Positions 7,185 through 42,007 of a stretch of 64,000 bases of DNA are shown piece after piece. This DNA comes from Robiginitalea sp. (GTDB lineage Bacteria > Bacteroidota > Bacteroidia > Flavobacteriales > Flavobacteriaceae). The notes under the pieces were generated by a model that saw only the letters and a program-made list of their open reading frames with translations, was not told where the DNA came from and did not search any database. Location of the stretch: positions 1 through 64,000 of the forward strand of contig JAHEJJ010000001.1 of assembly GCA_024638915.1 (NCBI GenBank), in the 5' to 3' direction. Numbering within the stretch: position 1 is the first letter of the stretch; every line of letters begins with the position of its first letter. Made by a program: the position numbers and the translations under genes.

Positions 7185-8872
7185 ATTCTCTGAGCTTTTA
7201 ACTGTTCAGCGGCGTAGGTGGCCGCTCTGGCTGTAAGCGCCATATAGAGCAATGAAGGACTTTGATTTCCCGTGCTTGTCATACACGCCCCGTCGGTTAC
7301 AAATACATTCTGGCATAGGTGTAATTGGTTGAAAGCATTGAGCATGGATGTTTTTGGATCCGCGCCCATTCTGCAGCCCCCCATTTCGTGGATGTCGAGC
7401 CCCGGAGCTTGTTTGGAGTCGTCCTGCTCAATATCCACACACCCCATGGTTTCCATCATGGCTTTACTTTCCTTAAAAAAGTCCTGAAGCATCAATTCGT
7501 CGTTGTCGTCATAATTCACATCCGTTACCAGTTGTGGAATGCCCCAGGGATCTTTTTTTGAATCGGATAAATAAACCCGGTTAGACGATTTTGGAATGGT
7601 TTCACCCTGCATATACATATAGGCCTGCCAGTAGCCCGGATAGCGAAGACTTTCTTTATAGGCCGCTCCAATACCGGGGCCATTTTCTGGCGCCTCCTGA
7701 TTTCTGTTTCGGTAAGCACCGCTGAAAATGGTGTATCCACCAACAAAAGGCATATCGTTCTTATATAGATTTCTATAGTTGGCTAAAATAAGTTCTGAGG
7801 GATTCCTACCATAGACATAGCTGTCTTTAAACCCTTCGAATCTGCCCGAGGCCCAGCCACGATAGTTGTGAAAGCCAATATACCGCCCCAGAATATCATG
7901 ATCATTTCCCAGGCCATTCGGGAATCGATCCGAGGTGGAATTCAACAAAATAAGATTGGTATTAAGGGCCGATGCATTTACAAAAATTACCTCGGCTTTT
8001 AGCTCCTTACGCATGCCCGAAACCGTATCTAAATATTCAATTCCAGAGGCTTTTTTTTCGCGATCGTCATAAATTATTCTCTCCACCACCGCATTTGAAA
8101 TAATGCTGAGGTTTCCGGTTCGTTGTGCCGAAGGCAGAGTGCTCGAATTACTGCTGAAATAGGCGCCAAAAGGGCAGCCCCTCATACAAAGATTGCGCGA
8201 CTGGCATTTGCCTCTGCCCAATTCTAAATGGTGTTCTTTAGGCTCGGTAAGATGTGCCCATCTTCCATGGACCAGGTGCCGGTCCGGGTATTTGTTGCTC
8301 ACGGCCTTACTCATATGGCGTTCCACACAGTTCATTTCGAACGGGGGCAGGAATTCGCCATCGGGCATGGATTCCAGGCCGTCTTTATTGCCGCAGACCC
8401 CTATAAAGTCTTCCACCATGCTATACCATGGCGCGATTTCGGCATAATCTACCGGCCACCGGATGCCATATTTATATTTGGATGGGGATTCAAATTCGGA
8501 CTGGCTCCATCGCTGGCAAGCCCGGCCCCATGTTAAGGATTTACCCCCCACCTGAAAACCGCGGATCCAATCGAAAGGCTTTTTTTGTACGTAGGGCTGA
8601 TCCTTGTCTTTGATGAAAAAGTGGGCGGTATCTTCACCAAAACCTGCCGATTTGGAGATCAGGGGGTTTTCATCCCTGAATGCCTTTGGCATCCAGCCGC
8701 CATGGGGCAGCTCCCAGGGGTGCAAATGCGCCGTAGTATAGTCTTTATTGTGCTCCACATTTCGCCCCCGTTCCACGACACAGGTCTTAAGGCCTTTTTC
8801 ACACAGTACTTTAGCCGCCCATCCCCCGGAAATACCGGACCCAATGACGATGGCGTCGTAGCTTGTATCCAT
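7181..8872 (-). CDS. GMC-family FAD-dependent sugar dehydrogenase, catalytic subunit
   Basis: About 563 residues from the ATG at 8872; an in-frame extension to 8953 would add a hydrophobic leader, but it runs into the preceding terminator and lacks an ATG context. The FAD-binding motif AIVIGSGISGG is at residues 8-18. A Cys-rich stretch CQSRNLCMRGCPFGAY (middle) and the C-terminal HEMGGCRMG and STGNQSPSLL carry the catalytic His and Asn of GMC enzymes. The protein resembles the large subunit of membrane-linked gluconate, fructose and glucoside-3 dehydrogenases and, like them, lacks a signal peptide. It is the first gene of the operon that continues with Gfo/Idh/MocA, subunit 3 and NagB-like genes. 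No cytochrome c partner gene is visible nearby. Confidence 0.88.
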   Translation of the reverse strand: MDTSYDAIVIGSGISGGWAAKVLCEKGLKTCVVERGRNVEHNKDYTTAHLHPWELPHGGWMPKAFRDENPLISKSAGFGEDTAHFFIKDKDQPYVQKKPFDWIRGFQVGGKSLTWGRACQRWSQSEFESPSKYKYGIRWPVDYAEIAPWYSMVEDFIGVCGNKDGLESMPDGEFLPPFEMNCVERHMSKAVSNKYPDRHLVHGRWAHLTEPKEHHLELGRGKCQSRNLCMRGCPFGAYFSSNSSTLPSAQRTGNLSIISNAVVERIIYDDREKKASGIEYLDTVSGMRKELKAEVIFVNASALNTNLILLNSTSDRFPNGLGNDHDILGRYIGFHNYRGWASGRFEGFKDSYVYGRNPSELILANYRNLYKNDMPFVGGYTIFSGAYRNRNQEAPENGPGIGAAYKESLRYPGYWQAYMYMQGETIPKSSNRVYLSDSKKDPWGIPQLVTDVNYDDNDELMLQDFFKESKAMMETMGCVDIEQDDSKQAPGLDIHEMGGCRMGADPKTSMLNAFNQLHLCQNVFVTDGACMTSTGNQSPSLLYMALTARAATYAAEQLKAQRI

Positions 8873-20735: not shown

Positions 20736-20909
20736 ATTTTTTGTTCGGGACTCTGGCAGACATTAAGTGTGGCTATGGCCAGCTGTGACACCGGTTTGTT
20801 GACCTTTCAATCCCGAAAAATCATTATTTTTACATCATCCAGCGGAGACCTGGTACAGGGAAACTCAAACCATTGCTAGTTGAAGAAAAAAGTATCATTT
20901 CTGGGAAAG

Positions 20910-23900
20910 ATGGCTTTGAGGAAAAGACTCTCTAAAGTTGCAGCTGGTATTTTCCTGTTGCTGTTGTTGTGCTACCTGGGCACCCAGTATTATTTTTCCA
21001 CCCAGAAAAATAAAATAGCCGCCCTGGTGATCAATGTGCTAGACGAACAGTATAGCGGGCATATTGAATTCGATGCTGTTTCCCTTGACGACTGGGTTGG
21101 TTTCAGCGCTCCGTACGTCTCTATAGAAAACCTGGTGGTCACCGACACGGCCACCACCAATCATCTGCGCCTTAGTGTGGCAGAACTCCGATTAAAACTT
21201 TCGATCAAGGACCTGCTCGGGGGTTTGATCCAGGTAAAATCGGCCACCTTGAAGGACGGCGAGATCTTAATGGATAATTATACGCCCCTGACCCGTGAGG
21301 AGACCCTCGAACTGCCCCCTATTCTCGATTCACTTGAGGTGAAAAAGAAACTGGCCAATAGACTCCTTGAGAAGAAGACCCGTCTTGATCTAGTTGATCT
21401 GAATGTTCAAATCCGCCATCATGTAAAAAACAAGCTGTTTGAGTTTTATATCAATGAGATCAGCTCCGAGATTCAATTCGAGAGCGAAACCATCAGGACA
21501 AAGACCTCGCTCGACATAAATATAGAATCCCTCGGCTTCAACCTCGAAAAAGGAAGCTTTATAAATGGCGCACATACTACCGGTACATTCCTTTCTGATT
21601 TTGATCTGGGCGAGCGGCAATTGAGCATAGCCCCGTTCGAGCTGGAAATCGATGAGCAGGATTTTAAAACACAGGCCGAGATCAATTTTAAAGGGACCGG
21701 AACATTCGATATCGTTCTCGAGAATGAACAAACACAGTTTATACCGACCATCGGACTTTTAACGGCCCCAATTCAGGAAAAACTTTCGATCATACAAATA
21801 GATGACCCAATCTATACCCAAACAAAATTGAACGGGACCTTTGTATATAAAGGGAATCCCAAAGTTGAGGTAAATTTTCGCACCGAAGGGAATTCAGCGG
21901 TATTCCATGGTGATAAAAAACTATCGGACTTGTCGTTCTCCGGGAGATTCATCAACCGGATCTATGATGACGAAATAGCCGAAGGGGAGAACAAGAAAAA
22001 CATAAGGATAACATTACCAGAACTCAATGGGAAATACAAAGACATCGGGTTTGCTATCTCCGATGTACTGATGTTGAACAGCCCGGATGCTGAAAATGTC
22101 TTGAAGGCTAAAATCCTCGCTAAGGGATCGCCTGAAGACCTTAATAATTTTCGCGAAAATCAACATTGGAGTTTTGAGGGTGGCAGCTTTGATCTCGATA
22201 CGGAGATCAGCGGAGAGGGAACAGATATGGCCAGTCTGGTATCGGCCTCCAATGGACGCTTCGCGCTTCGCAATACGCGGATTATAAACAATGACAATCA
22301 GGTGGCTCTACCGGTCACCACCCTCTTGTTATCCCTGAAAAAGAACCTAGCCAAACTGGAGGAATTAGATGTTCCCCTGAATAAACGAGACCGCTTTATG
22401 CTGAGCGCAGATTTTGAGAACTTTTCTGCATTGTTTAACACAGAGGCCAAACAAAAGCTGCATTCCAAATTCCGTATCCACTCAGAAAACCTGGTCTGGG
22501 ACGACTTTATCCGCCTTTTCGATATTGCCCAATCGGGTCATAAGACCAAAAAGCCCGAACTGGTGCTTCAAGACGTTCTGAAAGACGTATATGGTAAATA
22601 TGATCCTTCAATCGATATTTCGTTAGCCACTGTACAATTCGGGCCTTTTGCACTGAACAATTTTAATACTGGTATACATTTCGATAATGAAAATTCTCTT
22701 CGTTTGGATAGGACCTCCTTTGGTCTCAAGGGTGGGAAAATGAACCTCAAAGGAAACCTAAACCTCAAAGATCAGGACCAAATAATTCTAAACGCAGAGC
22801 TAAAAGGCCGGGCAGACGTGGAAATACTCAATGATGTCTTTGATGAAGACCAGTTAATCCTTAAAGGCGGCAAGTTTTCAGTAGAGGCCAGTATAAATGG
22901 AGACCTTTTACAGATGGATCGCATTTTGAGGACCTCTTACAGTGCGCTAAAAGTGAATGATACCAGGATCACCTACATACCCGAGGATATAAAATTTCCG
23001 GTTAAAACGCTCGATCTGGTGCTCAACAGGGATCATGCGGAGCTCAATGCCCTTACCCTGAGGTTGGGCAGGGAGGATGAAGTGACCTTTTCAGGGGAGA
23101 TAAAAAATCTTTCTGCCCTTTTATTCAGAAGTATAAATCTGCCGGTCAGCTCGGAATTGAATATCAGTTCAGAGAAACTCATATGGGAAAATTATATCGA
23201 TATTTTTGGTGAAGGGCCGGCTGAGTCTACAACAACGACCAGGGATCTGGAAGAAATAATTGAAGCCGAGCGCAAGTTCAAATCTAGCCTCAGAGAAATC
23301 TACGGCTCCCTCAATCCCCGAATCACGGCCGATATAGGAGAATTCAGATATAAGGACATGGACGGCTTCCATCAGTTTCATACCGGGATCTCGTTTAAGG
23401 ACAAAAATACAATGAGACTGGAAGAGACCAGTTTTCTTTATGATAAGGAGACGACGGTGAGTATGACGGCCGAAATAGATATCGCTGATAAGCGGGATAC
23501 TTATGTGGAGTTATCACTGCAGGCTTCCGGAAACCCAGAGGAGCTGAACGATGTGTTCAACAACGACACCTTTTTCTTTACCGAAGGAGAATTTGAAGTT
23601 GAAGCTGAGGTAGCTGGTAATATCGGGGTACTTGATTCATTGGTGGCACGTTCGAGTACGGATTTAAGAGTGAGAAACACCTTTATACTTCATCAGCCGA
23701 GCCAGGTCCGTATTCCCCTAACCGAACTGGAGGTGGCAATGCATGATAATACGGCAGAATTAAAATCGTTTGTTCTTGAATTGCATTCCGGGGACCGGAT
23801 TAGCTTGACGGGGGAAGTCGGACATATTTCAGATCTTATATTCGACCTGCCACCGGATGAATCGAAAGCTTATTCTGAGGTCAGTATATATTCCGAAAAA

Positions 23901-24923
23901 ATTATTTTCGAGGAATTCCAGGACTTGTTTTCGATCGCCCAGCAGGATACCACTGTGGTGACTGAGGTGGAGGAGAAGCCAGAAACGGCGATTAAACCCA
24001 CCATAAGGGATGTATATAATAAATTCAGGCCCAGTATGACAGCGACCATCGAAGAGTTCGAACTCAACGGCCTAATTGTGAGTGACCTAAAAACAGGCTT
24101 TTATTTCGAGGACCAGAACAAGCTTTACCTCGAGGAAAGCGGTTTTGATTTTTACGATGGCAGCGTAAGCCTCGACGCACATCTCGATATCTCCGAGCCC
24201 GGAAAAACGTTCTTTTCTTTCGGTTTTGACACCGAGAAGATCGATTTGGAGAAATTGCTCAAGGCCTTTGATTATTTCGATATGGCATCACTTCGCTCCG
24301 CAAAAAGGATCGGGGGGATCATAAGTCTCAATACCGCAATAGAAGGCGAGGTTGACGATGAAGGTGAAATAATTTCAGGGAGCCTGAAAGGCAGTATAAA
24401 ATTTGATCTTGAGGAAGCCCAGGTATCAGGATTTGAACCCATGATCAATGCGGGGAGTAAAATCTTTAAAAAAGAGCGGGTGGAGGATATCCGATTCAAA
24501 CCGATTAGAAACACCCTGGTCATTTCAGATAATACCCTCGAGATCCCGCTGATGGAAATCCAGTCCTCGGCCTTTGGATTGTTTATAATCGGTCACCTTG
24601 GGTTTGCTGATGTACCGACCAATATTTGGGTAGGTTTCCCGCTGGACAACCTTAAGACCCGAGATGTGAGGAACATACCCAAAAAAAAGGGCTATATCGC
24701 CTCGGGAAAGAAGGTTTATGTTGAGGCCAAGAGCGATGAAAAAAAGGGGATGAAGTATGTGCTTCACCTTACCCCTAAAAAGTACTACAAGGAGCGAGAC
24801 ATGCTCGATGTGTACCGAAGCGAGATCAGGGAGGATCGAATAAATATCCGGAAATATAAAAGAGACGCCAAAAAAGCCGTGCGCGATGCCAAAAAGGAAG
24901 AAGACGCTCAAGACAAGTCCTAG
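20910..24923 (+). CDS. Giant AsmA/TamB-like periplasmic protein with internal repeats
   Basis: 1337 residues from ATG 20910 (a TTG at 20880 is also in frame). A single N-terminal anchor (GIFLLLLLCYLGTQYYF) is followed by one very long periplasmic beta-rich rod ending in a highly charged Lys/Glu tail. Three successive units of roughly 230-240 residues each begin with a short S-E-K/N-[LI]-[IV]-[WF]-[DE] motif (SENLVWDDF, SSEKLIWENY, YSEKIIFEEF) and continue with a [DE][IV]Y segment. In the three units this runs DVYGKYDPSIDI, EIYGSLNPRITADI and DVYNKFRPSMTATI, and each is closed by a TGxxFxxxNxxxLxxxxF signature. AsmA/TamB relatives form hydrophobic grooves that carry phospholipids between membranes; that role is inferred. 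Translated 175 bases after the MscS gene on the same strand, possibly the same transcript. Confidence 0.78.
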   Translation: MALRKRLSKVAAGIFLLLLLCYLGTQYYFSTQKNKIAALVINVLDEQYSGHIEFDAVSLDDWVGFSAPYVSIENLVVTDTATTNHLRLSVAELRLKLSIKDLLGGLIQVKSATLKDGEILMDNYTPLTREETLELPPILDSLEVKKKLANRLLEKKTRLDLVDLNVQIRHHVKNKLFEFYINEISSEIQFESETIRTKTSLDINIESLGFNLEKGSFINGAHTTGTFLSDFDLGERQLSIAPFELEIDEQDFKTQAEINFKGTGTFDIVLENEQTQFIPTIGLLTAPIQEKLSIIQIDDPIYTQTKLNGTFVYKGNPKVEVNFRTEGNSAVFHGDKKLSDLSFSGRFINRIYDDEIAEGENKKNIRITLPELNGKYKDIGFAISDVLMLNSPDAENVLKAKILAKGSPEDLNNFRENQHWSFEGGSFDLDTEISGEGTDMASLVSASNGRFALRNTRIINNDNQVALPVTTLLLSLKKNLAKLEELDVPLNKRDRFMLSADFENFSALFNTEAKQKLHSKFRIHSENLVWDDFIRLFDIAQSGHKTKKPELVLQDVLKDVYGKYDPSIDISLATVQFGPFALNNFNTGIHFDNENSLRLDRTSFGLKGGKMNLKGNLNLKDQDQIILNAELKGRADVEILNDVFDEDQLILKGGKFSVEASINGDLLQMDRILRTSYSALKVNDTRITYIPEDIKFPVKTLDLVLNRDHAELNALTLRLGREDEVTFSGEIKNLSALLFRSINLPVSSELNISSEKLIWENYIDIFGEGPAESTTTTRDLEEIIEAERKFKSSLREIYGSLNPRITADIGEFRYKDMDGFHQFHTGISFKDKNTMRLEETSFLYDKETTVSMTAEIDIADKRDTYVELSLQASGNPEELNDVFNNDTFFFTEGEFEVEAEVAGNIGVLDSLVARSSTDLRVRNTFILHQPSQVRIPLTELEVAMHDNTAELKSFVLELHSGDRISLTGEVGHISDLIFDLPPDESKAYSEVSIYSEKIIFEEFQDLFSIAQQDTTVVTEVEEKPETAIKPTIRDVYNKFRPSMTATIEEFELNGLIVSDLKTGFYFEDQNKLYLEESGFDFYDGSVSLDAHLDISEPGKTFFSFGFDTEKIDLEKLLKAFDYFDMASLRSAKRIGGIISLNTAIEGEVDDEGEIISGSLKGSIKFDLEEAQVSGFEPMINAGSKIFKKERVEDIRFKPIRNTLVISDNTLEIPLMEIQSSAFGLFIIGHLGFADVPTNIWVGFPLDNLKTRDVRNIPKKKGYIASGKKVYVEAKSDEKKGMKYVLHLTPKKYYKERDMLDVYRSEIREDRINIRKYKRDAKKAVRDAKKEEDAQDKS

Positions 24924-26159: not shown

Positions 26160-27158
26160 TCATCTGATGGCAACAGGCCTTACAGGCGATCCTGTGGCTC
26201 CTTTGAACCGAATCGTGGTCACTATAAATAAAAATTGATGGATTTCTTCCTCCATCAGCGCATCGAAGGTCATATTCTCCAGATTAAAAATACCGTTTCT
26301 CATCATCAGCTCCTGGTGTACCGGGAATGCTTGTCCCGCAACAGGGTTTGGGATGACCTCGGTGCACCAGGAATCACTGCCTATCATACTCGCTTTTTTT
26401 TCTGCCACCCACCGGGCCACATCCAAGCCGATACCCGGAGGATTATGGTTATATTCTTCTGCCGTCTCCCATAAGGCAGACCACCCATATCGAAAAAGTA
26501 AGGCATCTCCAGGAGTGATATCGGACTCTGATATACCCTGTCTCTGCAGCGCTCCCTTTACATCTTCTATGGTAACCTCATAACTGTTGGGCAAACGGTC
26601 TACATTTTTGTAACCCGCGATATCAATCAGAATACCTTTGGTAATTATGGGCTTAATATGTTCTATCCCAAGCTTGCGGAGTCCGTTATAAGAATCCATT
26701 TCACTGGCGGTATAGCCGTTGTAAAAAACGTATTCTGCCTCACCGTTTTCCATGACCACCTCCTGGCCTATATGTCCCAGGCCGTCGAATTGGGTACCTA
26801 CCTGTCCTATCTGGGTTGAGAGGAATTCATCATTCCCCATAAGTTTGTTCTCCCCCCATGGTTCTCCCTTTGAAGGGAGGATCATCGAATAACTCCGGTT
26901 GCCAAATAAAGGCATTCCCTCTTCGTATACCTGCCCCAGTTCATAGACTTTACCACTTGTTGCAAGCGTGAGCGCATCCAAAACTTTTTGCGGTGTTATC
27001 CTGTTCGAAGCACCGGCCTGGTCCTGGCTCCCCCATTCCGCATTGGGCCAGAAAGGGCCCTTTTCTCTGGTCTGGGCTAAAGAGACTGAGCAAATCAGGA
27101 TGATGATAAAATGGCACCTAAGTAGGACAAAGCCAAAGTTTTTTACATGTTGGATCAT
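26160..27158 (-). CDS. Exported cyclase-family hydrolase (kynurenine-formamidase-like fold)
   Basis: 332 residues from ATG 27158, chosen over a TTG at 27194 because it gives a compact signal peptide (CHFIIILICSVSLAQ). The domain motif GTQFDGLGHIG near residue 120 corresponds to the HxGTHxDxPxH metal-binding site of the cyclase/formamidase family in its variant form with Gln for the first His. WGSQDQAGASNRITP near residue 43 and a late GIGLDVARWVA segment are typical of the longer branch that hydrolyses cyclic or amide substrates. Zinc or manganese binding is family knowledge. Physiological substrate unknown. Divergent from the three-gene paralogue cluster. Confidence 0.8.
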   Translation of the reverse strand: MIQHVKNFGFVLLRCHFIIILICSVSLAQTREKGPFWPNAEWGSQDQAGASNRITPQKVLDALTLATSGKVYELGQVYEEGMPLFGNRSYSMILPSKGEPWGENKLMGNDEFLSTQIGQVGTQFDGLGHIGQEVVMENGEAEYVFYNGYTASEMDSYNGLRKLGIEHIKPIITKGILIDIAGYKNVDRLPNSYEVTIEDVKGALQRQGISESDITPGDALLFRYGWSALWETAEEYNHNPPGIGLDVARWVAEKKASMIGSDSWCTEVIPNPVAGQAFPVHQELMMRNGIFNLENMTFDALMEEEIHQFLFIVTTIRFKGATGSPVRPVAIR

Positions 27159-27318
27159 ATCTTTGAGGAATCTTAATATGTTAGTCAGGAACAATTCACG
27201 CTAAGATACATAGATTTTAGTATGTGATCCGTATCCAAATTCACTTGCTTTTTTGAACAGTGGAAGAACAAATAACTTTGTTTTTTTGATTGGTATTTCC
27301 TGGCAACCAGAAACAATA

Positions 27319-27348
27319 TTGGTTTGTTAAGGAAATGACTTACATTTG
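27319..27348 (+). promoter_or_regulatory. Consensus Bacteroidota sigma-A promoter for the paralogue cluster
   Basis: TTG at 27319-27321, 19-base spacer and TACATTTG at 27341-27348 match the Bacteroidota housekeeping consensus (TTG, 19, TAnnTTTG) exactly. Transcription would start about 30 bases before the ATG at 27384. It implies that the three-gene operon is driven by the vegetative sigma factor. Confidence 0.75.
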
Positions 27349-27383
27349 AGCTTCCCCTCCTTGAATTTAAAGCTCTGATCGAC

Positions 27384-28559
27384 ATGAAAAATTCATTTTT
27401 TAAGGCCTGGCCGTATTGTTGCCCGACGTTCTGTGTCTTATTCTTGATTTTTATTGGAAGCCCAGGGGTTGTACAAGCCCAGGATGATGCGTATCTCTGG
27501 ACGAATCCTAATTCTTTTCATGATCGCGAAGCGTCTTTTACAGACCTTTCTTTTGATATAGGTGAAACCTTATTGGTGAAATCGTCCGATCCCGATAGTT
27601 TCAGCCCCTTAATCATAGCTACCTTTGAAGGCCGCCCCCGCCTTGGAATGCTCGACACATATAAGGTGGATATTCCACAATTGAGAATGGAATTAAATGA
27701 TAGTCGGCAACAACGCCAGGCGGTGACCGAAGAGCTCACACACAATATGGGCTGCTACCTCAGTCTGTTATGCCTTCAAATGATCCCCGATGAATTCACG
27801 GCCGACAAGTTGATGGTCTACAAGAGTGAAGGATCTAATTTTACGGGAAAATACTACACCCTAAACGAACAAGTAGACGGAAAGCTCAATTATTTTATTG
27901 TACCCCGTTTCCATATTGAAGGAATGGCGGCCGGTATGCTGACCAAAGAACGCTATAAGGAATATTATTGTCCCGCGGGTGAGAATTGCAGCGAAGGTTA
28001 TCGACGGCGCCAGGGAAGGATATGGGCAGGACCGCAAGCCAATGAGTTCAAAAAACGGGCAGCGTACAAGAAATTTGTAGATAATGAGGTGCCCAAACTG
28101 CTGGCATGGTCATCGGGTCTAAGCCGGGAAGTTGCCCTTATCAATAGGGTGGTTCTCCCCACCTATGATTTTCAGAAACAAGGTTTTGATGTGGTAATTG
28201 CCCCTGTTAAGGGCAGCGCAGCTTTCGCCTCGCAGGACCTCCAATTTTGGCCAAGGGATCCCGAAGGATCAGGATTTGAATTAAATTCCGGTTTTGTAAA
28301 AACCGTGTTCCTGAAAATTCCGCCAGATAAAGCCGAGAGCATTAAAAACCGCTTGAAAACAGAATTCCATCAGCGTAACAATCAAATGCTTTATTCGGTG
28401 ATGGTGGCGGAGATCTATAGTATGGGACCTAAAAGACGAGGCGGGACGCATACGGCTTTTGGAGGGAATATCGGATTTCTGTACGATTACAAGGATACAA
28501 CCATCCGATTCTATTTGGACCCTCAACTAAAAGAATTGGTATACGAAACCAAACTCTGA
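27384..28559 (+). CDS. Secreted paralogue cluster, member 1 (unknown function)
   Basis: 391 residues with an N-terminal signal peptide ending near VVQAQ. The mature protein shares an ordered set of motifs with the next two genes: F-x-[IP]-GE followed by V-x-S in the N-terminal part (FDIGETLLVKS), FEGRPRLG for the FRxLLRLG element, a Cys pair CPAGENC (C-x5-C), WAGPQANEF (W-[AG]-G-x-EF), YDFQKQGF (YDF-x3-GF), a PPDKAESIKNRL helix and an FYLDPQLKELVYE end. It differs by an extra Cys-containing stretch (MGCYLSLLCLQ). The YDF-x3-GF pattern recalls DUF4852 proteins, but I cannot confirm that. No catalytic motif stands out; binding or structural roles are possible. Five bases separate it from the next gene. 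Confidence 0.75.
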   Translation: MKNSFFKAWPYCCPTFCVLFLIFIGSPGVVQAQDDAYLWTNPNSFHDREASFTDLSFDIGETLLVKSSDPDSFSPLIIATFEGRPRLGMLDTYKVDIPQLRMELNDSRQQRQAVTEELTHNMGCYLSLLCLQMIPDEFTADKLMVYKSEGSNFTGKYYTLNEQVDGKLNYFIVPRFHIEGMAAGMLTKERYKEYYCPAGENCSEGYRRRQGRIWAGPQANEFKKRAAYKKFVDNEVPKLLAWSSGLSREVALINRVVLPTYDFQKQGFDVVIAPVKGSAAFASQDLQFWPRDPEGSGFELNSGFVKTVFLKIPPDKAESIKNRLKTEFHQRNNQMLYSVMVAEIYSMGPKRRGGTHTAFGGNIGFLYDYKDTTIRFYLDPQLKELVYETKL

Positions 28560-28564
28560 TCGCT

Positions 28565-29662
28565 ATGAAAAGAATATATACTATTGTTTTGATCTTCGGC
28601 TGTGGCATACTGTTTCAGCTACAAGCTCAGGAATATACCAAAGCTTCCCTTGGTTTTGACCCTGGCGAATTTGAGTTAGTCGAATCGCCCTTTCCCGACG
28701 ACCTGAGACCGCTATTCATCCCTCGTTTCCGTGGGCTTCTTCGCCTGGGCACACCAAATTCCTATGGCATGTCTGCGAATCCCATTCCACAGGAGGTTTT
28801 CCGATCTCAAAAAGAAAGGGGTGATCTCACGGCCAAAAAAAAGCAAAGTATACTAAGGCTATTTGAACTGATGGAGATCCAATATCGCAGCGCTGAAATA
28901 AAAACAGATGAATTGGCACGTGAGTTCAGACCTACCATTGTGGCCAAGACCCCGCCCGATGATGCTCTGCGTACTACCTTGTACTGGTCTGTTAAATTCA
29001 AAGAGCTTGCCCCCAGGTTCCTAACACCCAAAGCACTTTCAAAGTACTGGTGCGAGGATGGAACAAAATGTATTCCGGAAACCAATGGTGCATATGTCTC
29101 CCCCAAAAGAAACCGGCCTACATGGGGTGGCTTCAGGAGCGACGAATTTGCACGGCTCCGTGCGTGGCAGTCCTATGTGAAGTCCGAGATCCCGAAAATA
29201 AAAACATGGGCTAATCAGATCGACGAGCAAGAGGCCTATGTAGTGGGCACCACCTATATTCAGGACTACGATTTCAACCATGAAGGTTTTGTACTTCGCG
29301 TAGACGCCGTGGAAGTAAAGACATCAAAAGGGTCATTGCTTAGGTACCCCCCAATACGAGACCAGCAAAGTTTTTTTGCAAGAACTAAAATTGATGAAAG
29401 GTTCTTAGCAGGTAAGCTCATAAAAATGAGTCCGGAAAAAGCAGAGAAACTGGTGGAGACCATGGAGGCTTATGACTCCAGAAATAGACAATTGTACTAT
29501 GTATATAAGGCCAGTATCGGTGTTGGAGAAGCTGAGGCCCCCCAGGGTATCTATGGTACCGCACCAACACAGCTTGTTCAGAATCCCATTTCGAATATTA
29601 TTGAGTTCTTTTTAGATGAGGAGTTGAAACTCAAACTTTTTGAGGCCGACTTTACAAAATAG
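28565..29662 (+). CDS. Secreted paralogue cluster, member 2 (unknown function)
   Basis: 365 residues. Signal peptide ends near LQAQ. Motifs in the same order as in member 1: FDPGEFELVESP, FRGLLRLG, the C-x5-C pair CEDGTKC, WGGFRSDEF, YVKSEIPKIKTWA, YDFNHEGF, MSPEKAEKLVETM, QLYYVYKASI and an FFLDEELKLKLFE end. It is closer to member 3 than to member 1. The paired cysteines and export suggest a disulfide-closed loop in the periplasm or outside. The start overlaps nothing and lies 5 bases after the previous stop, so it is almost certainly co-transcribed. Function unknown. Confidence 0.75.
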   Translation: MKRIYTIVLIFGCGILFQLQAQEYTKASLGFDPGEFELVESPFPDDLRPLFIPRFRGLLRLGTPNSYGMSANPIPQEVFRSQKERGDLTAKKKQSILRLFELMEIQYRSAEIKTDELAREFRPTIVAKTPPDDALRTTLYWSVKFKELAPRFLTPKALSKYWCEDGTKCIPETNGAYVSPKRNRPTWGGFRSDEFARLRAWQSYVKSEIPKIKTWANQIDEQEAYVVGTTYIQDYDFNHEGFVLRVDAVEVKTSKGSLLRYPPIRDQQSFFARTKIDERFLAGKLIKMSPEKAEKLVETMEAYDSRNRQLYYVYKASIGVGEAEAPQGIYGTAPTQLVQNPISNIIEFFLDEELKLKLFEADFTK

Positions 29663-29666
29663 CCCT

Positions 29667-30767
29667 ATGCATCATACTTTCAAATTATTATTGCCAATTT
29701 GTGTTTTAGGCCACTTTCTGTCTTTCGGCCAAACATCTGGTTTTACCGAACAGGAACTTGGTTTCTCCCCGGGGGAGATCCGGGTTGTTGAATCGCCTGA
29801 CAAGCAAAACATTGAACCTTTTGTAGTGCCCACCTTCAGAAATTTATTGCGCCTCGGACAACAACGGGCCTATTATACGAAGAAAATGGATCGCACCGAG
29901 TATGCCAACACGGGTTTAGCCCGTAAAGACCTTGAATTCAAACTTCGTGAGGGACTAAAACAGTACTTCAGCTTGGTTTGTATGGAGGCTGCAAAAAACA
30001 CCATTGATCCCGATAAGATCAGAAAGGCTTTTAGACCCGGAACCGCATTGGAAGACAATAACGCTCAGTACGCAAAATCGGTAGATTCATATTGGGCGAT
30101 CGTATTGAAAAAAATGGGGGCTTATTCTTTTAAACCAGAAACCTTCTCAAAGTTTTTTTGCGCAGAACAGCAGCCCTGCCTTCCTCTGCATATGCCCAAA
30201 TCTTCTGGTTCTTACCAGCAGAAACTGCGTCAGGCGGTATGGGGAGGTCGTTCGGGCGAATTTGCCGAAATGAGGGCCTTTAATGATTTTATGGACACCT
30301 ATGCTGAGAAATTTTTCGGATGGTCTACAGACAAGGACATGCAGGAGGTTTATCTGGTGGGAAAAACTTTGCTGGCAGAATACGACTTTAAAGCAGGAGG
30401 CTTTGTATTGAAAGGTGTAAATGCACAGTCGGGAGGCCCGGTGCATATGGAATATAATTCTTCAGCGGACGATTCGTTGTTCAAACCAAACTATACGCCT
30501 GAAGGAAATTCTTATGGAACAGGTATTCTTGTGGCGATGAGCGCGGAAAAAGCCGAGGCGCTGCTCAACCGGTTAAAATCTGAAGGCCGTTCCCGCCAGC
30601 TTTTTTATGTATATAAGGCGCGGATAATACCACAATTATCAGAGACCGATAGGACCAATTATAAATTTCACATGATGGTTCGTTTTACACAAGAGCCCGT
30701 TTCGAGGACGATAGAGTTCTTTAGTGACGATGCCCTCACTGATAAGGTTTTTGAGATCAGCAATTGA
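29667..30767 (+). CDS. Secreted paralogue cluster, member 3 (unknown function)
   Basis: 366 residues from ATG 29667, 4 bases past the preceding stop; an earlier in-frame start inside the previous gene lacks a signal. Signal peptide ends near SFGQ. Shared motifs: FSPGEIRVVESP, FRNLLRLG, C-x5-C pair CAEQQPC, VWGGRSGEF, YDFKAGGF, MSAEKAEALLNRL, QLFYVYKARI and the FFSDDALTDKVFE end. The three copies are diverged, which suggests an old duplication with distinct roles rather than recent amplification. Convergent with the cupin gene, 49 bases between stops. Confidence 0.75.
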   Translation: MHHTFKLLLPICVLGHFLSFGQTSGFTEQELGFSPGEIRVVESPDKQNIEPFVVPTFRNLLRLGQQRAYYTKKMDRTEYANTGLARKDLEFKLREGLKQYFSLVCMEAAKNTIDPDKIRKAFRPGTALEDNNAQYAKSVDSYWAIVLKKMGAYSFKPETFSKFFCAEQQPCLPLHMPKSSGSYQQKLRQAVWGGRSGEFAEMRAFNDFMDTYAEKFFGWSTDKDMQEVYLVGKTLLAEYDFKAGGFVLKGVNAQSGGPVHMEYNSSADDSLFKPNYTPEGNSYGTGILVAMSAEKAEALLNRLKSEGRSRQLFYVYKARIIPQLSETDRTNYKFHMMVRFTQEPVSRTIEFFSDDALTDKVFEISN

Positions 30768-31880: not shown

Positions 31881-32726
31881 TTATTGAAATCCCTTGTAAT
31901 AGCGAAGTTGTTCCAGGGTAGACTCGGAATATGTCTTCGAAACCGGTATTTCAAGATCGATATGACTCAGGATGATCTTTAGATCTTTTAGGGATCCCTT
32001 AATCGAATGCACATTGTACAGGTTTACCAGATAAGAACGATGACAGCGGACAAGAAAACCGTGATCTTTTGTGGCATCTAACCGGGCCAAAGAAGAACGG
32101 ATAAGAAACTTTGTGAGATGGCTGTGCTTTAGGAAGTGCAATTCGATATAATTATCCTGTGCCCTGGCATAGATAAAGTCGGAAACAGAAATGGATATGC
32201 GATCTTTAGTCCCTTCGCCTGTAAAATGGAGCATATCCTTCGGGTCTATTCGCTGATCGGGGTTGGTTAGTATGGCATCATAATTCTTGCGCAGGCCGAG
32301 AAATCTGAAATAAAAAAAACAACCCACTGCAGGAAAGATCAGAACCATGGCCACATTGAAAAGAAATCCGGGAAGGCTGTTAAGTTGCCAATCGTGCCAG
32401 TCTCCAAGAAAATTATAAACTGTAAAAATGATCAGTCCTATAAAAATCAGGCTCCAGGTAGTCCATCCAATAATGTAAAGCGAATCGGACCGTCTTTTTA
32501 ACAAGGGCCGTATACCAAATTCATTGGTCAGGGAAGCAAGGATAGTTACCGGCAAGAAGATGCCCATTTCGAGTAGAAAATCGAGCGTATATTCGTGCTG
32601 AGGGTTGTAATTGCTAACCCCGAATGGGAGGAAAGCCATCAGGAAAAGAAAAAGAAATACCCCGTAAGCAAAACTTAATACCAATCGGTATTTTATTGTA
32701 TTATAAAACGGATATTGCCCTGACAT
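31881..32726 (-). CDS. Membrane-bound LytTR-family transcription regulator
   Basis: 281 residues. Four hydrophobic segments in residues 12-145 (first FAYGVFLFLFLMAFLPFGV; last FNVAMVLIFPAVGCFFYF) anchor it, and a LytTR DNA-binding domain fills the C-terminus. Typical LytTR elements are IYARAQDNYIELHF, FLVRCHRSYLVNL with the RCHRS[YF]LVN signature, and a late VSKTYSE. There is no receiver domain, so it is a one-component membrane regulator or the partner of a kinase elsewhere. It is probably autonomous, with the cupin gene downstream as a likely target. No kinase is next to it. Confidence 0.88.
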   Translation of the reverse strand: MSGQYPFYNTIKYRLVLSFAYGVFLFLFLMAFLPFGVSNYNPQHEYTLDFLLEMGIFLPVTILASLTNEFGIRPLLKRRSDSLYIIGWTTWSLIFIGLIIFTVYNFLGDWHDWQLNSLPGFLFNVAMVLIFPAVGCFFYFRFLGLRKNYDAILTNPDQRIDPKDMLHFTGEGTKDRISISVSDFIYARAQDNYIELHFLKHSHLTKFLIRSSLARLDATKDHGFLVRCHRSYLVNLYNVHSIKGSLKDLKIILSHIDLEIPVSKTYSESTLEQLRYYKGFQ

Positions 32727-36712: not shown

Positions 36713-36909
36713 CGCATTGTATATTCCGAACCACATTAAGCGTTCTTTATCTATTAAGACACAGAAAATTTATACAGGTCACATTTTTGTGGAAAAAAGT
36801 AAGCAGGGATAGATATAAAACGATGAAAGTAGTATGGTATACAGGTAAAAGAAGCGATCCAGATAAGTCTTGCAACAGCTATTGAATGATCCTTATATCG
36901 ATCATCTGT

Positions 36910-38313
36910 TTAAAGATTTTCGGGATTGATCGCAAGGGTTCTGAACAATTTGGCCTTGGCGGTGAAGAACTTGTTCTCCACTTCATTCTGTTTCAGTTCT
37001 GCGTCGATCAGTCGGCTTTCCCTGGTATTGATCAAAAAGAGTGAACTTTCGCCAAAACTGAATTTGCGTTCTTCACCTGCGAGCAAGGTGCGGTAATCCG
37101 AAACGATATTACCGATCATTCCGGTCTGGTCTTCAAAAGACTCGAGTTCCCTGTAAACTGCCGATATCTTGTTTCGTAATTCGAGGGCGGCATTGTCGTA
37201 TTCGTATTCCGCATTTTGCAGCTTATATTTAGCCAGTTTCAGCGCGCCTCTTTCCTTGCGCAGGAAAAGCGGCAATTCGAAATTGATACCTCCTTTAAAC
37301 TGTTGCGTGTCGAAGGAATTCAAAAGCTCAGGTGTTTCAGTCAAAAAATTATACTCCAGATCTATTCTTGGCAGCAACTGGTTAACTTTAAGCCTCTTTT
37401 CCACCTGTAATCCGTCGATCTTGTACCCCAGGGCCATTAATTTTGGATGTTCATCCAGTACGACACTATCCATAGGGCGACCAAGCAGGTCTAGTGTAAT
37501 ATCAATTTCACCACCAGGAGCACTGTCCGGGACTACGTTGGGCTGGAGCTCAACGGGGATATTATTATCCAACCACAGGAAATTAGATAGTTCCAGAGAT
37601 TTCTTAGTAAAATTCAATGCTGCCTGTTCCAGACCGAGCACCCTGCTTTCAACGGCGATCTTTGCTTCGACGGTATCTATAGCAGCAATATCACCGGCCA
37701 GGGCACTGCTGCGTATCCCTTCGAAACGGTCTACTGCGTTCTGGAGGAAATTTCTGAAAATCTGCTGCTCGTTGTACGCTTTTAACCAATCGAAATAGGC
37801 AATGGCCGCGCGAAATAAAATTTCATTGACCTGCAGGTCTCTTTCGGCTAAGCTTTGCTCTCTAAAAAACTTGGCTTGCTTTAGCGTCGCCATCCTTTCG
37901 TTGATCCACAAGCCATCACCAAGAGACAGGGTTACACCCGCGCTGAAAAGACCATCATCGGGAAGGAACTCATCTGGATTGAGGAAGTCTCCGCTGTTTT
38001 GTTGAAAATTTCCCTTTAGTTCGATCCCGTACCAGGTAGGAACCTTGAAAGTGGTATTGAGTCGGTCCCAGTATTCCGTGCCACTGAACTTTTTGCGATC
38101 ATAATCTACTTCGATCTTAGGATCGAAAGCGCCACGAGCACGTAAGAGTTCGGCCTGGCCGATATCGAGGGTCAGGCGGGCCTGTTTGGCCACAGGATGG
38201 AAGGATTTAACAAGACCCAGATATTCTCTGAAATTCAGTATCTGATTAATATCCTGTTGTGCCACACCTCCAAATAAGGAAAGCAAGCATAATATGAGTA
38301 TTATTATTCTCAT
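36910..38313 (-). CDS. TolC-family outer-membrane efflux protein
   Basis: 467 residues with a short signal peptide (ILILCLLSLFGGVAQ). The long alpha-helical, coiled-coil-rich body with two structural repeats (around LRARGAFDPKIEVDYDRKK and again around LPRIDLEYNFLTETPE) and the SVTLSLGDGLW-type strand region match TolC-like tunnel proteins. It is last in a four-gene operon (TetR, ABC, HlyD, TolC) and overlaps the HlyD gene by 4 bases. With those partners it should form a tripartite type I-like exporter across both membranes. The cargo is unknown; no obvious exported substrate gene lies in the operon. Confidence 0.88.
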   Translation of the reverse strand: MRIIILILCLLSLFGGVAQQDINQILNFREYLGLVKSFHPVAKQARLTLDIGQAELLRARGAFDPKIEVDYDRKKFSGTEYWDRLNTTFKVPTWYGIELKGNFQQNSGDFLNPDEFLPDDGLFSAGVTLSLGDGLWINERMATLKQAKFFREQSLAERDLQVNEILFRAAIAYFDWLKAYNEQQIFRNFLQNAVDRFEGIRSSALAGDIAAIDTVEAKIAVESRVLGLEQAALNFTKKSLELSNFLWLDNNIPVELQPNVVPDSAPGGEIDITLDLLGRPMDSVVLDEHPKLMALGYKIDGLQVEKRLKVNQLLPRIDLEYNFLTETPELLNSFDTQQFKGGINFELPLFLRKERGALKLAKYKLQNAEYEYDNAALELRNKISAVYRELESFEDQTGMIGNIVSDYRTLLAGEERKFSFGESSLFLINTRESRLIDAELKQNEVENKFFTAKAKLFRTLAINPENL

Positions 38314-39662
38314 TTTTTTTCGGCTTTGGCCGTCGTGGTTTCTGGTTGATAATAATTCGGAGGGAAGCCGTTAAGCTGTCGCCATATCTCGAACCAAATT
38401 GGTACATCATCGAGCAGTGCAATAGTATACGCTCCTGAGCCCACCCGGATACCTGTTGGCCACTCATGATCCTCTGCATCAGGCGCGAGCAGTACACGGT
38501 ACTTTCCATTATCGCTGATAAAGGTTTCGATGGCCACTACTTCACCCCCGAATGTACCATAAGAAAGGTTTGGCCAGCCGCTGAACACAATGGAAGGCCA
38601 ACCATCGAACTGTATCCTCACTTTTTCACCAAGCTGCACCAGCGGTAGGTCTATAGGTTCCACATAAGTTTCAACGGCCTGCTGATAATCCGATGGCATA
38701 ATGCCCACCAAACGATCTCCCTCCTTAAACGTTTCGCCTATTCCGGCTTGTATGGCGCGGTTGATGAAACCGTTTTGAGGGGCGCGGATGTAGTAAAGCT
38801 CTGAACGTATCTCGTAATTCGCGACTTCGTTTTCCAGTTTGGTGACTTGCGCTTCTGAATCGAACTGATTCGACTGAGCTGTGAATTTATCGCTTTCGGC
38901 CTTGGAGATCTTGTCGGCGTATTCGGCCCTGATCCTATTGAGCTCTACCCTCGCATTGATTACCTCGTTGCGGGCCGCAAGCAGTTTGTTCTCCTGTGAG
39001 ATCAATTTGGCTTGTGTCTCCTGTAGCTTTAACCTTTTTTCTTCTACATCAGTCACGGCTTTTAAGCCTTCTTCCTGTAACTGAACCACCCGATCATACT
39101 GCCTTTGAGCGATGGTAATATTGGTTTTGGCTGCCTCCAGATCTATGCTGTCGCTTTTCACCTTCAGCCCGCTTTGAAGCAATTTGTTCCGTGCCTGCTG
39201 CAATTTCAAATTTTCCTCTCGGCCCAGGGCATCGACCTGATTGTTGAGCGCTTTAACCTTTTCTGTGTAGGAGTTAACACTCATATTCTTAGCCTTGATC
39301 TGTTGTTCGGTACGGGCGATAAGCTTAGGATCAAAATATTCATTTTTGACATCTGAAATATGGAGAATCGTATCGCCTTTCTTTACATAATCACCTTCGC
39401 GAACATACCATTTTTCGATCCTGCCGGGAATGGGAGACTGAATAGTCTGTGGCCGCTGGTCTGGGGTCAGGGTCGTAACAAAACCTTCACCACTTACATT
39501 TTGTGTCCAGGGTAGAAATAACATGATCAGAGCCATGACGGAAAAGGCCTTTAAAAACCGATTCAGGTGTTTGTAATGCCGTCGATGAAATACTTTCTTC
39601 CCGGAAGCATAGCGCTCAAGACCTACCTTCTGATTTAATTTGTTATGGGATATATTCAGCAT
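38310..39662 (-). CDS. HlyD-family membrane fusion protein
   Basis: 450 residues. A basic N-terminus and one membrane helix (FSVMALIMLFLPWTQNVSG, residues 40-57) are followed by a biotinyl-lipoyl-like half motif SPIPGRIEKWYVREGDYVKK. A long coiled coil of about 180 residues (ARTEQQIKAKNMSVNSYTEK onward, rich in Gln, Lys and Leu) comes next, then the second lipoyl half with APQNGFINRAI and a beta-barrel domain. This is the periplasmic adaptor that bridges the ABC transporter and the TolC tunnel. It overlaps the ABC gene by 20 bases, so translation is coupled. Confidence 0.9.
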   Translation of the reverse strand: MLNISHNKLNQKVGLERYASGKKVFHRRHYKHLNRFLKAFSVMALIMLFLPWTQNVSGEGFVTTLTPDQRPQTIQSPIPGRIEKWYVREGDYVKKGDTILHISDVKNEYFDPKLIARTEQQIKAKNMSVNSYTEKVKALNNQVDALGREENLKLQQARNKLLQSGLKVKSDSIDLEAAKTNITIAQRQYDRVVQLQEEGLKAVTDVEEKRLKLQETQAKLISQENKLLAARNEVINARVELNRIRAEYADKISKAESDKFTAQSNQFDSEAQVTKLENEVANYEIRSELYYIRAPQNGFINRAIQAGIGETFKEGDRLVGIMPSDYQQAVETYVEPIDLPLVQLGEKVRIQFDGWPSIVFSGWPNLSYGTFGGEVVAIETFISDNGKYRVLLAPDAEDHEWPTGIRVGSGAYTIALLDDVPIWFEIWRQLNGFPPNYYQPETTTAKAEKK

Positions 39663-41328
39663 GTCTTTCTTCTTTTATTTTACCGTTTTCAATGGTAATA
39701 ATCCGCCCGCATTTACCTTTCCAGCCTGTATTTTGACTGACTACTACCAAGGCCCAAGGACGGTCTGGTGCGGTGAGGAAATTCATGATCTTTTGTGCAT
39801 CACCGGTTTCGAAATGGTCTAAAGGATCCTTTAGTATTAAGAGTTTGGGCTTACGAACAATACTTCTGGCCAGGACGATCTTTTTTGAGATCGTGGCAGG
39901 AATCTGTTTTCCTTCCGGATAGAGCATCGTCTTCAGGCCCTGAGGCTGCTCTTTTACAAACTGGGTCAATCCTGTTTTTTCAAGGGCCCAGTAAACATCT
40001 TCCTGGGGTATTGAGGCATCTCCAAATGTAATATTGTCGAGGATGGTACCCTCAAAAGGAGACTCTTCTAATAATGACTGACCGATATGAGCCCGATAAT
40101 AATTAAGGTTGATCCCTTTTAAAGAGACATTGTTAACAAAGATATCGCCACGGTCTGGCTCGATGATCCCGGCTATCATCCTAAGAAGGGTAGTCTTACC
40201 GGAGCCATTCGGCCCCTGGAGTAATATGGTACAGCTACTGCTTATCATCAATGAAACATCATCGAGGATCTTTTTATCCCGCTCGGGCACCTCGTAAGAC
40301 ACCCTGTTGAGTTCCACGGTAAAACCATCACCTTCTTTAAAGGGTTTTTCGCCATCCTGAGGCTCGAGTTCTTTATCGACTACCTGCCCCAACTTCTCCA
40401 GCGAGGTAAGCAGGTCATAGAACGTTTCTAACCCGGTGATGAGTTTTTCAACCGAACTGATGACCAATAGTATGATGATCTCTGCGGCGACAAACTGACC
40501 GATGTTCATTTCCTGATTGAGGACGAGTATTCCACCGATGACCAACAGGCCTGCCGTAACCAGCACCTTAAAGCCGATCATCTGGATAAATTGGAGCACC
40601 AGGACACGAAAATGTCCCTCGCGCGCTGTCAGGTACTGCTCAACCAGCACATCGTTCTTGTCCATGGCGTGGGAGGTCTTTCCAGAGAGTTTAAAACTGA
40701 TGATCGATCTGGCCACTTCCTGTATCCAATGGGCCACCCGATACTTGTACATGGACTCCTCCAGGCTGGTATCGAGCCCTTTCTGTGCGGTGAACTTGAA
40801 AACCACATATATCAGCATCAAAAGCAGGATACCATATACTATAAAGAAGGGATGGTATAATGACAAGAGCAATAGTCCAAAAATTATTTGCAAGAGCGCT
40901 GCGGGGAAATCGACCAATATTTTAGAAAGCCCTTTCTGAACGGTCAATGTATCGAAAAAGCGGTTGGCCAACTCAGGGGGATAGTAGTTGCGCAACTCAC
41001 TCAATTTAATTTTCGGAAACCGATAGGCAAACTCAAATGAGGATCGGGTAAAGATCTTTTGCTGTACATTTTCAATGATACGTATTTGAGTAAGTTGCAG
41101 CAAGCCAACGAAGGCAACCCCGAGGGTCACAAGAATGACCAGGATGATCCAGGAGGTGCTTACCTGCGCTCCTTGTATGAGGTTGATGATCGCCTGTATA
41201 CCCAAAGGCAGGGATAGGTTTACAATTCCCGCAAAAATCGCATAGTAGAAAATCTGAAAAATATCTTTCTTGTCTAGGGCGAGCAAGCCCAAAAGGCGCT
41301 GCCACGAGGTTAGGATGGTTTTAGACAT
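39643..41328 (-). CDS. ABC exporter (fused permease-ATPase) with non-consensus ATPase motifs
   Basis: 561 residues. About six membrane helices lie in the first 310 residues, then a nucleotide-binding domain. Walker A is intact (LLQGPNGSGKTTLLRM), and the Q-loop is present (HIGQSLLEESPFEG). The signature motif reads PATISKKIVLARS instead of LSGGQ, Walker B reads LLILKDPLDHF with Lys in place of the Asp and Asp in place of the catalytic Glu, and the H-loop reads VVVSQNTGW without the His. The frame is otherwise complete and the operon is intact, so this looks like a diverged, not broken, ATPase. It may hydrolyse ATP slowly or act mainly by binding. The 8-base overlap with the TetR gene and 20-base overlap with HlyD show strict co-expression. 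Confidence 0.88.
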   Translation of the reverse strand: MSKTILTSWQRLLGLLALDKKDIFQIFYYAIFAGIVNLSLPLGIQAIINLIQGAQVSTSWIILVILVTLGVAFVGLLQLTQIRIIENVQQKIFTRSSFEFAYRFPKIKLSELRNYYPPELANRFFDTLTVQKGLSKILVDFPAALLQIIFGLLLLSLYHPFFIVYGILLLMLIYVVFKFTAQKGLDTSLEESMYKYRVAHWIQEVARSIISFKLSGKTSHAMDKNDVLVEQYLTAREGHFRVLVLQFIQMIGFKVLVTAGLLVIGGILVLNQEMNIGQFVAAEIIILLVISSVEKLITGLETFYDLLTSLEKLGQVVDKELEPQDGEKPFKEGDGFTVELNRVSYEVPERDKKILDDVSLMISSSCTILLQGPNGSGKTTLLRMIAGIIEPDRGDIFVNNVSLKGINLNYYRAHIGQSLLEESPFEGTILDNITFGDASIPQEDVYWALEKTGLTQFVKEQPQGLKTMLYPEGKQIPATISKKIVLARSIVRKPKLLILKDPLDHFETGDAQKIMNFLTAPDRPWALVVVSQNTGWKGKCGRIITIENGKIKEERHAEYIP

Positions 41329-42007
41329 GATTTGGTTTATTTAAGCAATTGAATACCAGGTTTTTGAAATAATCGGTGGGATCTGTGTGTTCCTGACAAT
41401 CTGTTAGAGAGGAGAAATGGTCGAGCAGAAAATGCTGATGAAGCGAACCTTCCAATACCGTACTCGCCAGACTGGATGGGTATGAATATTTGCGATTCAC
41501 AGCCGCAATCATTTCAGAAAGACGGCCGACCAGTCTCTTGTATATTTCAAAATAACCCTCTTTGTTCTCCTGATCCACCTCTTTGGTCAGATAGGATTTG
41601 GAATATTCATGGATGACAATCTTATTGAGCATTACTTCATTGATATGGGAGAAGGAGGAATCTTCTTCGGTGGTTTGAGTGACGATTTCTATAGCCCGGC
41701 CTAATTTATCTCCTGCATTGGCAATACTGTTAGTGGCAAATACCAGCTGGTATTCCAACCATCCCCAATACCATGAGGCCAGATATAGCAACAATTTATG
41801 TTTGCTCTCAAAATAGCGGTAGATTGAACTTTCATTAGATCCAATGCGATCTCCCAGTTTCCTAAAAGTAAACTTGTCGAATCCCATATCATGAATCATG
41901 ATAATACTATCTTCGATGATTCTTTTCCCTAAAGAGGAAGATTCCGGATCTTTCACATAGATTTTATCGTTGACTCCTATTTTAATAGATTGAAGAAGGC
42001 GATCCAT
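41321..42007 (-). CDS. TetR-family repressor of the export operon
   Basis: 228 residues. The N-terminal HTH is MGFDKFTFRKLGDRIGSNES followed by SIYRYFESKHKLLLYLASW, a standard TetR signature near residues 40-80. The ligand-binding C-terminal domain is helical, with aromatic and Ser/Thr-rich stretches and no recognised ligand. First gene of the export operon, it overlaps the ABC gene by 8 bases. A palindrome sits in the spacer of its own promoter, so autorepression and induction by an exported compound are likely. Confidence 0.9.
   Translation of the reverse strand: MDRLLQSIKIGVNDKIYVKDPESSSLGKRIIEDSIIMIHDMGFDKFTFRKLGDRIGSNESSIYRYFESKHKLLLYLASWYWGWLEYQLVFATNSIANAGDKLGRAIEIVTQTTEEDSSFSHINEVMLNKIVIHEYSKSYLTKEVDQENKEGYFEIYKRLVGRLSEMIAAVNRKYSYPSSLASTVLEGSLHQHFLLDHFSSLTDCQEHTDPTDYFKNLVFNCLNKPNHV

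Follow-up and report, generated by a model that had tools for sequence, protein, structure and literature searches.

The window analysed here, a stretch of 64,000 nucleotides from contig JAHEJJ010000001.1, carries three adjacent genes, A, B and C, for paralogous proteins with signal sequences. Their relatives in other Flavobacteriaceae form a four-gene cassette that adjoins a sensor kinase and a LytTR response regulator. The host assembly (3.04 Mb) and the genome of a sister species of the same genus, called Eudoraea in this analysis (Flavobacteriaceae), are the two trio genomes. L010 denotes the trio locus of the sister species and L011 another stretch of its genome.

27384..28559, + strand: gene A, 391 residues; paralogue whose signal sequence, read by eye, spans about 27384-27482; 71% identical to L010 6001-7176
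28565..29662, + strand: gene B, 365 residues; paralogue whose signal sequence, read by eye, spans about 28565-28627; 72% identical to L010 7182-8285
29667..30767, + strand: gene C, 366 residues from the ATG; paralogue whose signal sequence, read by eye, spans about 29667-29735; 80% identical to L010 8290-9390

The genes follow one another head to tail, 5 bp (A/B) and 4 bp (B/C) apart, and the second Eudoraea genome holds the same trio with the same order and gaps. An earlier annotation, hereafter the sequence-only reading, had described three adjacent exported-type paralogues of 391, 365 and 366 residues spaced by 4-5 bases. The open reading frames, together with a Sec-type signal sequence recognised by eye at the start of each protein, confirm this description. 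Pairwise identity among A, B and C is 22-31%, and B, used as query against its own genome, returned only itself, C (E = 4.7e-48) and A (4.1e-21) up to an E value of 10. Judged by their sequences, A, B and C are true paralogues. The ratio of nonsynonymous to synonymous changes (pN/pS) against the sister species is 0.24 for A, 0.24 for B and 0.19 for C, with 0.19 and 0.20 for two neighbouring genes; the three reading frames are under purifying selection. Since orthologue identity is 71, 72 and 80% and pN/pS is near that of the neighbours, the paralogues date from well before the two species separated, and each of the three has been maintained.

Export of the family proteins is predicted from their signal sequences only. 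A lipoprotein cysteine at the cleavage site is not conserved: the signal regions contain cysteines in A (residues 12, 13 and 17), B (13) and C (12), yet no cysteine precedes residue 124 in the L010 orthologues. No C-terminal sorting domain family of the type IX secretion system (T9SS) was among the Pfam and NCBIfam matches; these libraries presumably hold models of the T9SS tail.

The ordered motif set that the sequence-only reading ascribed to all three proteins holds in part. A, B and C indeed share FxxGE, VxS, C-x5-C, YDF-x3-GF, Q[LM][FLY]Y and the C-terminal motif. FRxLLRLG, in contrast, occurs in B and C only (FEGRPRLG in A), the EKAE motif reads DKAE in A, and W[AG]G is separated from EF by three or four residues in the trio, not by one. 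Residue conservation was counted in 23 family members, namely the 34 known members (see below) less those of L010, L069 and L071. Besides the start, only R60, G62, F195, W215, Y235, F237, G241, A293 and L354 (B numbering) are invariant in all 23, hence most of these motifs are not family-wide. In our judgement the invariant residues look structural rather than catalytic.

The quartet cassette in other Flavobacteriaceae

In the family and phylum profile searches at most five candidates per genome were scored, so that lone weak members might escape. A profile built from the six Eudoraea proteins and run against 397 Flavobacteriaceae genomes revealed clear homologues in four more genomes (best E values 2.2e-28, 1.3e-26, 1.6e-24 and 7.4e-23). 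Together with the two Eudoraea genomes and one weak match judged to be chance, the total was 7 of 397. This weak match, in G283 (E = 0.005), lies amid unrelated genes, as named by eye. With a profile of 22 sequences, 6 of the 397 genomes were found (5 of 237 genera). At the phylum level the same profile gave matches at E <= 0.001 in 2 of 390 genomes, both already known. Short weak matches in G551 and G754 have E values of 0.009 and 0.002 and thus lie below the reach of the phylum search. Within the genus of G273 the cassette is present in 4 of 12 genomes, within that of G383 in 1 of 4; these counts cover the genera of G273 and G383, not those of G135 or G235. In total, nine Flavobacteriaceae genomes carry the family: the two Eudoraea genomes with three genes and seven genomes from four genera with four. 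Sets of one or two members were not seen in these nine genomes, and no homologue was seen alone, within the limit of five scored candidates per genome in the family and phylum searches.

At all seven quartet loci (L033-L036 and L069-L071) the four genes run in the same direction with gaps of -17 to 43 bp, and the order of the positions is conserved. A maximum-likelihood tree of 34 family proteins recovers a supported clade across the seven quartet genomes for position 2 (99/90), position 3 (98/99) and position 4 (99/97), and a weakly supported one for position 1 (83/87). Since the position clades span seven genomes, the four lineages predate the split of the cassette among the four genera, or its spread. 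The Eudoraea proteins form a separate group (99/100), which is unsure because of long branches. A pairing of C with quartet position 2 was rejected by the approximately unbiased (AU) test (p = 0.0001); grouping of B and C with position 2, or of A with position 3, was borderline (AU p = 0.049), the groups having been named after inspection of the data.

The paralogues could also represent a radiation of ligand-binding or carrier proteins that work independently, each with its own ligand in the periplasm or outside, and share an operon only for common regulation. We regard this as a real but rather improbable alternative. It agrees with the deep divergence within a genome (22-34% identity at the four loci tabulated), with the variable cysteine pairs and N-terminal inserts and with the small number of invariant residues, which look structural in our judgement. 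Independent binders, however, would be expected to come and go, whereas all four positions occur in fixed order in every one of the seven quartet genomes and no partial set was seen; the three-member Eudoraea set is the one exception in number. The simplest reason for keeping four non-interchangeable paralogues as a full set would be a heteromer. The heteromeric assembly suggested by the sequence-only reading thus fits the position-specific conservation of the quartets, while complex formation itself we infer, as we do regulation and joint action.

Operons of paralogous, non-interchangeable subunits are found among minor pilins and fimbrillins. The quartet resembles these operons in that its paralogues keep a fixed order and each has a separate lineage; it differs from them in that no pilin or fimbrillin family is among the Pfam and NCBIfam matches of this family.

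Some features vary between the loci. Six of the seven quartet operons begin with a small additional gene, which L036 lacks; the product is a charged protein in L033 and L034 (37% identical) and a putative lipoprotein in four genomes of one genus. In L036 a gene of 335 residues (6783-7790, - strand), for which Pfam gave nothing at E <= 0.01, shares 4 bp with the end of position 4 and is possibly a fifth operon member. N-terminal inserts of the type FFKKLKKNVEDRVVE, perhaps amphipathic, occur in positions 3 and 4 of L035, L069, L070 and L071, that is, in one genus only.

Kinase, LytTR regulator and phased repeats

A kinase gene and a response regulator gene adjoin the quartet divergently at all seven loci; kinase, regulator and quartet are the constant core. 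This pair, found in the relatives and so beyond the sight of the sequence-only reading, is the strongest clue. Pfam domains were assigned for the pair of L033, where TPR and His_kinase of the kinase as well as Response_reg and LytTR of the regulator score above the cut-offs and HATPase_c below. The pair of L071 was recognised by the protein starts. Among the pairs of the six loci compared, the kinases are 49-92% and the regulators 42-89% identical. The kinase has, by eye, a signal sequence and in addition a transmembrane segment between its TPR and kinase parts, and by this topology the TPR part would lie in the periplasm.

The kinase of L033 served as query in 13 chosen genomes, comprising the seven with a quartet, the two Eudoraea genomes and, among quartet-less congeners, two of eight for G273 and two of three for G383. 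The kinase is present at the locus in every quartet genome, in G135 as the query itself and in the six others as a protein 52-57% identical to it (594-736 bits). The six quartet-less genomes (four congeners and the two Eudoraea genomes) contain at best a paralogue of 32-39% identity and not more than 242 bits. Thus kinase and quartet come and go together in this sample of 13 genomes, which is the best evidence for one functional unit. As the kinase is absent in Eudoraea, control of the trio must come from elsewhere.

The co-occurrence also agrees with a role of the exported proteins as accessory sensors, i.e. the input of the TPR kinase rather than its output, presenting a signal to the periplasmic TPR domain. 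The placement of this domain on the same side of the membrane, as read by eye from the signal sequence and the transmembrane segment, is in line with such a role. Against it, purifying selection maintains the trio in Eudoraea although the kinase is missing there, and four paralogues are many for an input; we consider it unlikely.

The intergenic region between kinase and quartet contains phased repeats in part of the set. Pairs of ACG exactly 21 bp apart were found in three of five non-redundant regions (L035, L036 and L070) versus 0.06 expected. None of 2000 dinucleotide shuffles reached this count, and when 64 words were compared at 16 distances each, ACG at 21 bp had the highest z. It is also present in L069 and L071, which are near-copies of L035. 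A short word common to all five regions was not in excess, with 19 8-mers versus a shuffle mean of 11 and maximum of 24, and no 9-mer. LytTR binding sites are described in PMC2766830 as 9-bp repeats separated by 12 bp, which makes a 21-bp period, and spacers of 11-13 bp are given in PMC6193735.

The arrangement resembles LytTR two-component systems with a His_kinase (PF06580) TPR sensor in its divergent kinase and LytTR regulator beside the genes and, for two of the four quartet genera, in repeats with a 21-bp period. It differs from them in that the neighbouring proteins belong to an unclassified family and come in fours, and in that the window trio is without the pair. The circuit, a two-component pair adjoining exported target genes, is of a type already known, unlike its output proteins.

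Known families and proposed function

Neither A nor B nor C matched Pfam or NCBIfam at E <= 1. Searches of 22 family members against Pfam, PHROGs, NCBIfam and PADLOC gave matches in one member each only (best E values 0.0028, 0.0021, 0.082 and 0.00058, respectively), which we judge to be chance. Among solved structures, C alone gave four weak matches (E 0.55-0.81), a profile of the trio none at E <= 1, and the 22-sequence profile two weak ones, the better with E = 0.047 over 65 positions. No relative was found in viral contigs with an alignment of six sequences, in plasmids with B of the window and position 2 of L033, or in phages with position 2 of L035. A description of this system did not turn up in the open-licence literature, as far as titles and the beginnings of abstracts of the papers listed tell. 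The libraries searched thus contain no counterpart of this protein family. No characterised family matched and no member was seen alone in the nine genomes, with at most five candidates scored per genome in the family and phylum searches; the core claim of the sequence-only reading, an undescribed multi-gene set of exported paralogues, therefore stands.

In contrast, the suspected link to DUF4852 (PF16144; Pfam cut-off 22.8 bits) found no support from its model. In the own genome this model has one match, elsewhere than at the trio and under the cut-off, and DUF4852 is not among the eight Pfam families listed for the 22 members at E <= 5. Among 257 Bacteroidota genomes two DUF4852 proteins were found, the stronger L072 and the borderline L073. 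Aligned to the family profile with hhalign, L073 gave a probability of 2.1 and a score of 22.4, with a weak alignment over 60 columns, and L072 a probability of 0.1. In a rerun they scored 24.0 and 14.9, respectively. Of 108 unrelated open reading frames, taken mechanically from the window and nine loci (180-800 residues, antisense frames included), two reach 22.4 and one exceeds 24.0 (best 26.5). L073 is thus within the top few of this background and L072 unremarkable. DUF4852 was rejected as the family of the trio, the model having no match among the 22 family proteins. The profile comparison speaks neither for nor against a remote link: one stretch loosely resembles the borderline member L073, and the stronger member L072 shows no resemblance. 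No paper on DUF4852 was found in the open-licence literature.

The patchy distribution of the family might recall secreted, bacteriocin-like effectors in antagonism under LytTR control, and in Streptococcus mutans LytTR regulators control bacteriocin genes, according to PMC6193735. No immunity-like gene beyond the kinase pair is common to the clusters by eye, the library matches are weak and confined to single members (best in PADLOC, 0.00058), and no invariant residue looks catalytic in our judgement. For these reasons we hold such a function to be very improbable.

On balance we lean towards a sensor-controlled cassette of non-interchangeable exported proteins that act jointly at the envelope, of which the Eudoraea trio would be a diverged branch without the kinase. 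In this cassette, the periplasmic TPR part of the kinase would read an envelope signal. The LytTR regulator would act on the shared intergenic region, which in part of the set contains the 21-bp repeats, and would most likely switch on the four genes. The four exported soluble proteins would then be synthesised at the same time and cooperate outside the inner membrane, either within a single complex or as a set whose members are all needed. The Eudoraea trio would work without that kinase.

Several points weigh against this reading. The kinase was searched for in 13 chosen genomes rather than in all quartet-less ones, and since the pair is missing at the Eudoraea trio, the model of control does not cover the window. 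Clusters of paralogues arise by plain tandem duplication too, and the tree does not demonstrate that the trio descends from the quartet. ACG at 21 bp is absent from L033 and L034, and no phased repeat was seen by eye upstream of the window trio. Moreover, the ACG word was noticed before it was tested, and the three repeat-bearing regions belong to two genera whose proteins cluster in the tree, which leaves less independent evidence than a count of three suggests. Finally, the full-length model of B from six sequences is unusable, with a mean predicted local distance difference test score (pLDDT) of 41.6, probably because only six sequences were usable.

More specifically, and only tentatively, one may think of an undescribed sensor-controlled machine of the surface or periplasm. 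Its subunits, ancient exported paralogues with a new fold that number four or, in Eudoraea, three, would form a hetero-oligomer, and the machine would be inherited together with its own TPR kinase and LytTR regulator. In seven genomes a family without Pfam or NCBIfam match is tied to a dedicated sensor-regulator pair. This pair offers a handle on the timing of protein production, and joint action is what a fixed set of four leads one to expect. Marine Flavobacteriaceae are important in algal carbon turnover, and the cassette would represent a new envelope function of these bacteria.

Structure models, promoter and flanking genes

Structure prediction for single proteins thus failed for B, and fair confidence was obtained for one part of the trio only:

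30312..30764, + strand: C-terminal domain of C, the last 151 residues; mean pLDDT 67.0, predicted template modelling score (pTM) 0.61

The model consists of strands and one main helix, the latter formed by the EKAE motif. Foldseek found no match at E <= 0.001 in the PDB or among the viral models of BFVD, and the best VIA Z was 2.8; this absence of a structural match is not evidence for a new fold.

Upstream of gene A lies a candidate promoter:

27319..27348, + strand: Bacteroidota-type promoter TTG-N19-TACATTTG, by what we take, from recall, to be the consensus; partly kept in L010

The sequence-only reading had called this promoter perfect, which is correct for the window. The description is limited to it, since the sister species L010 has a spacing of 20 and the -7 box TATATTTA.

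Near the trio, 31881-32726 (- strand) encodes a membrane-anchored LytTR regulator (LytTR by Pfam, without match to a receiver domain; membrane segments by eye). As this gene is absent from the matching place in the sister genome, it is not favoured as regulator of the trio. The flank has been rearranged, for a putative cyclase gene (Pfam Cyclase), which the window has to the left of the trio (26160-27194, - strand), is found on the opposite side in the sister species (L011 8515-9516). Left of the trio in both Eudoraea genomes is an AsmA-like protein, named by eye, of 1347 residues (20880-24923, + strand in the window) beside a DinB-family gene (Pfam). Further downstream, genes for a regulator, an ABC transporter and HlyD-like and TolC-like proteins, all named by eye, stand in a row (36910-42007, - strand), and the stretch 36901-41988 is 81% identical in the sister genome.

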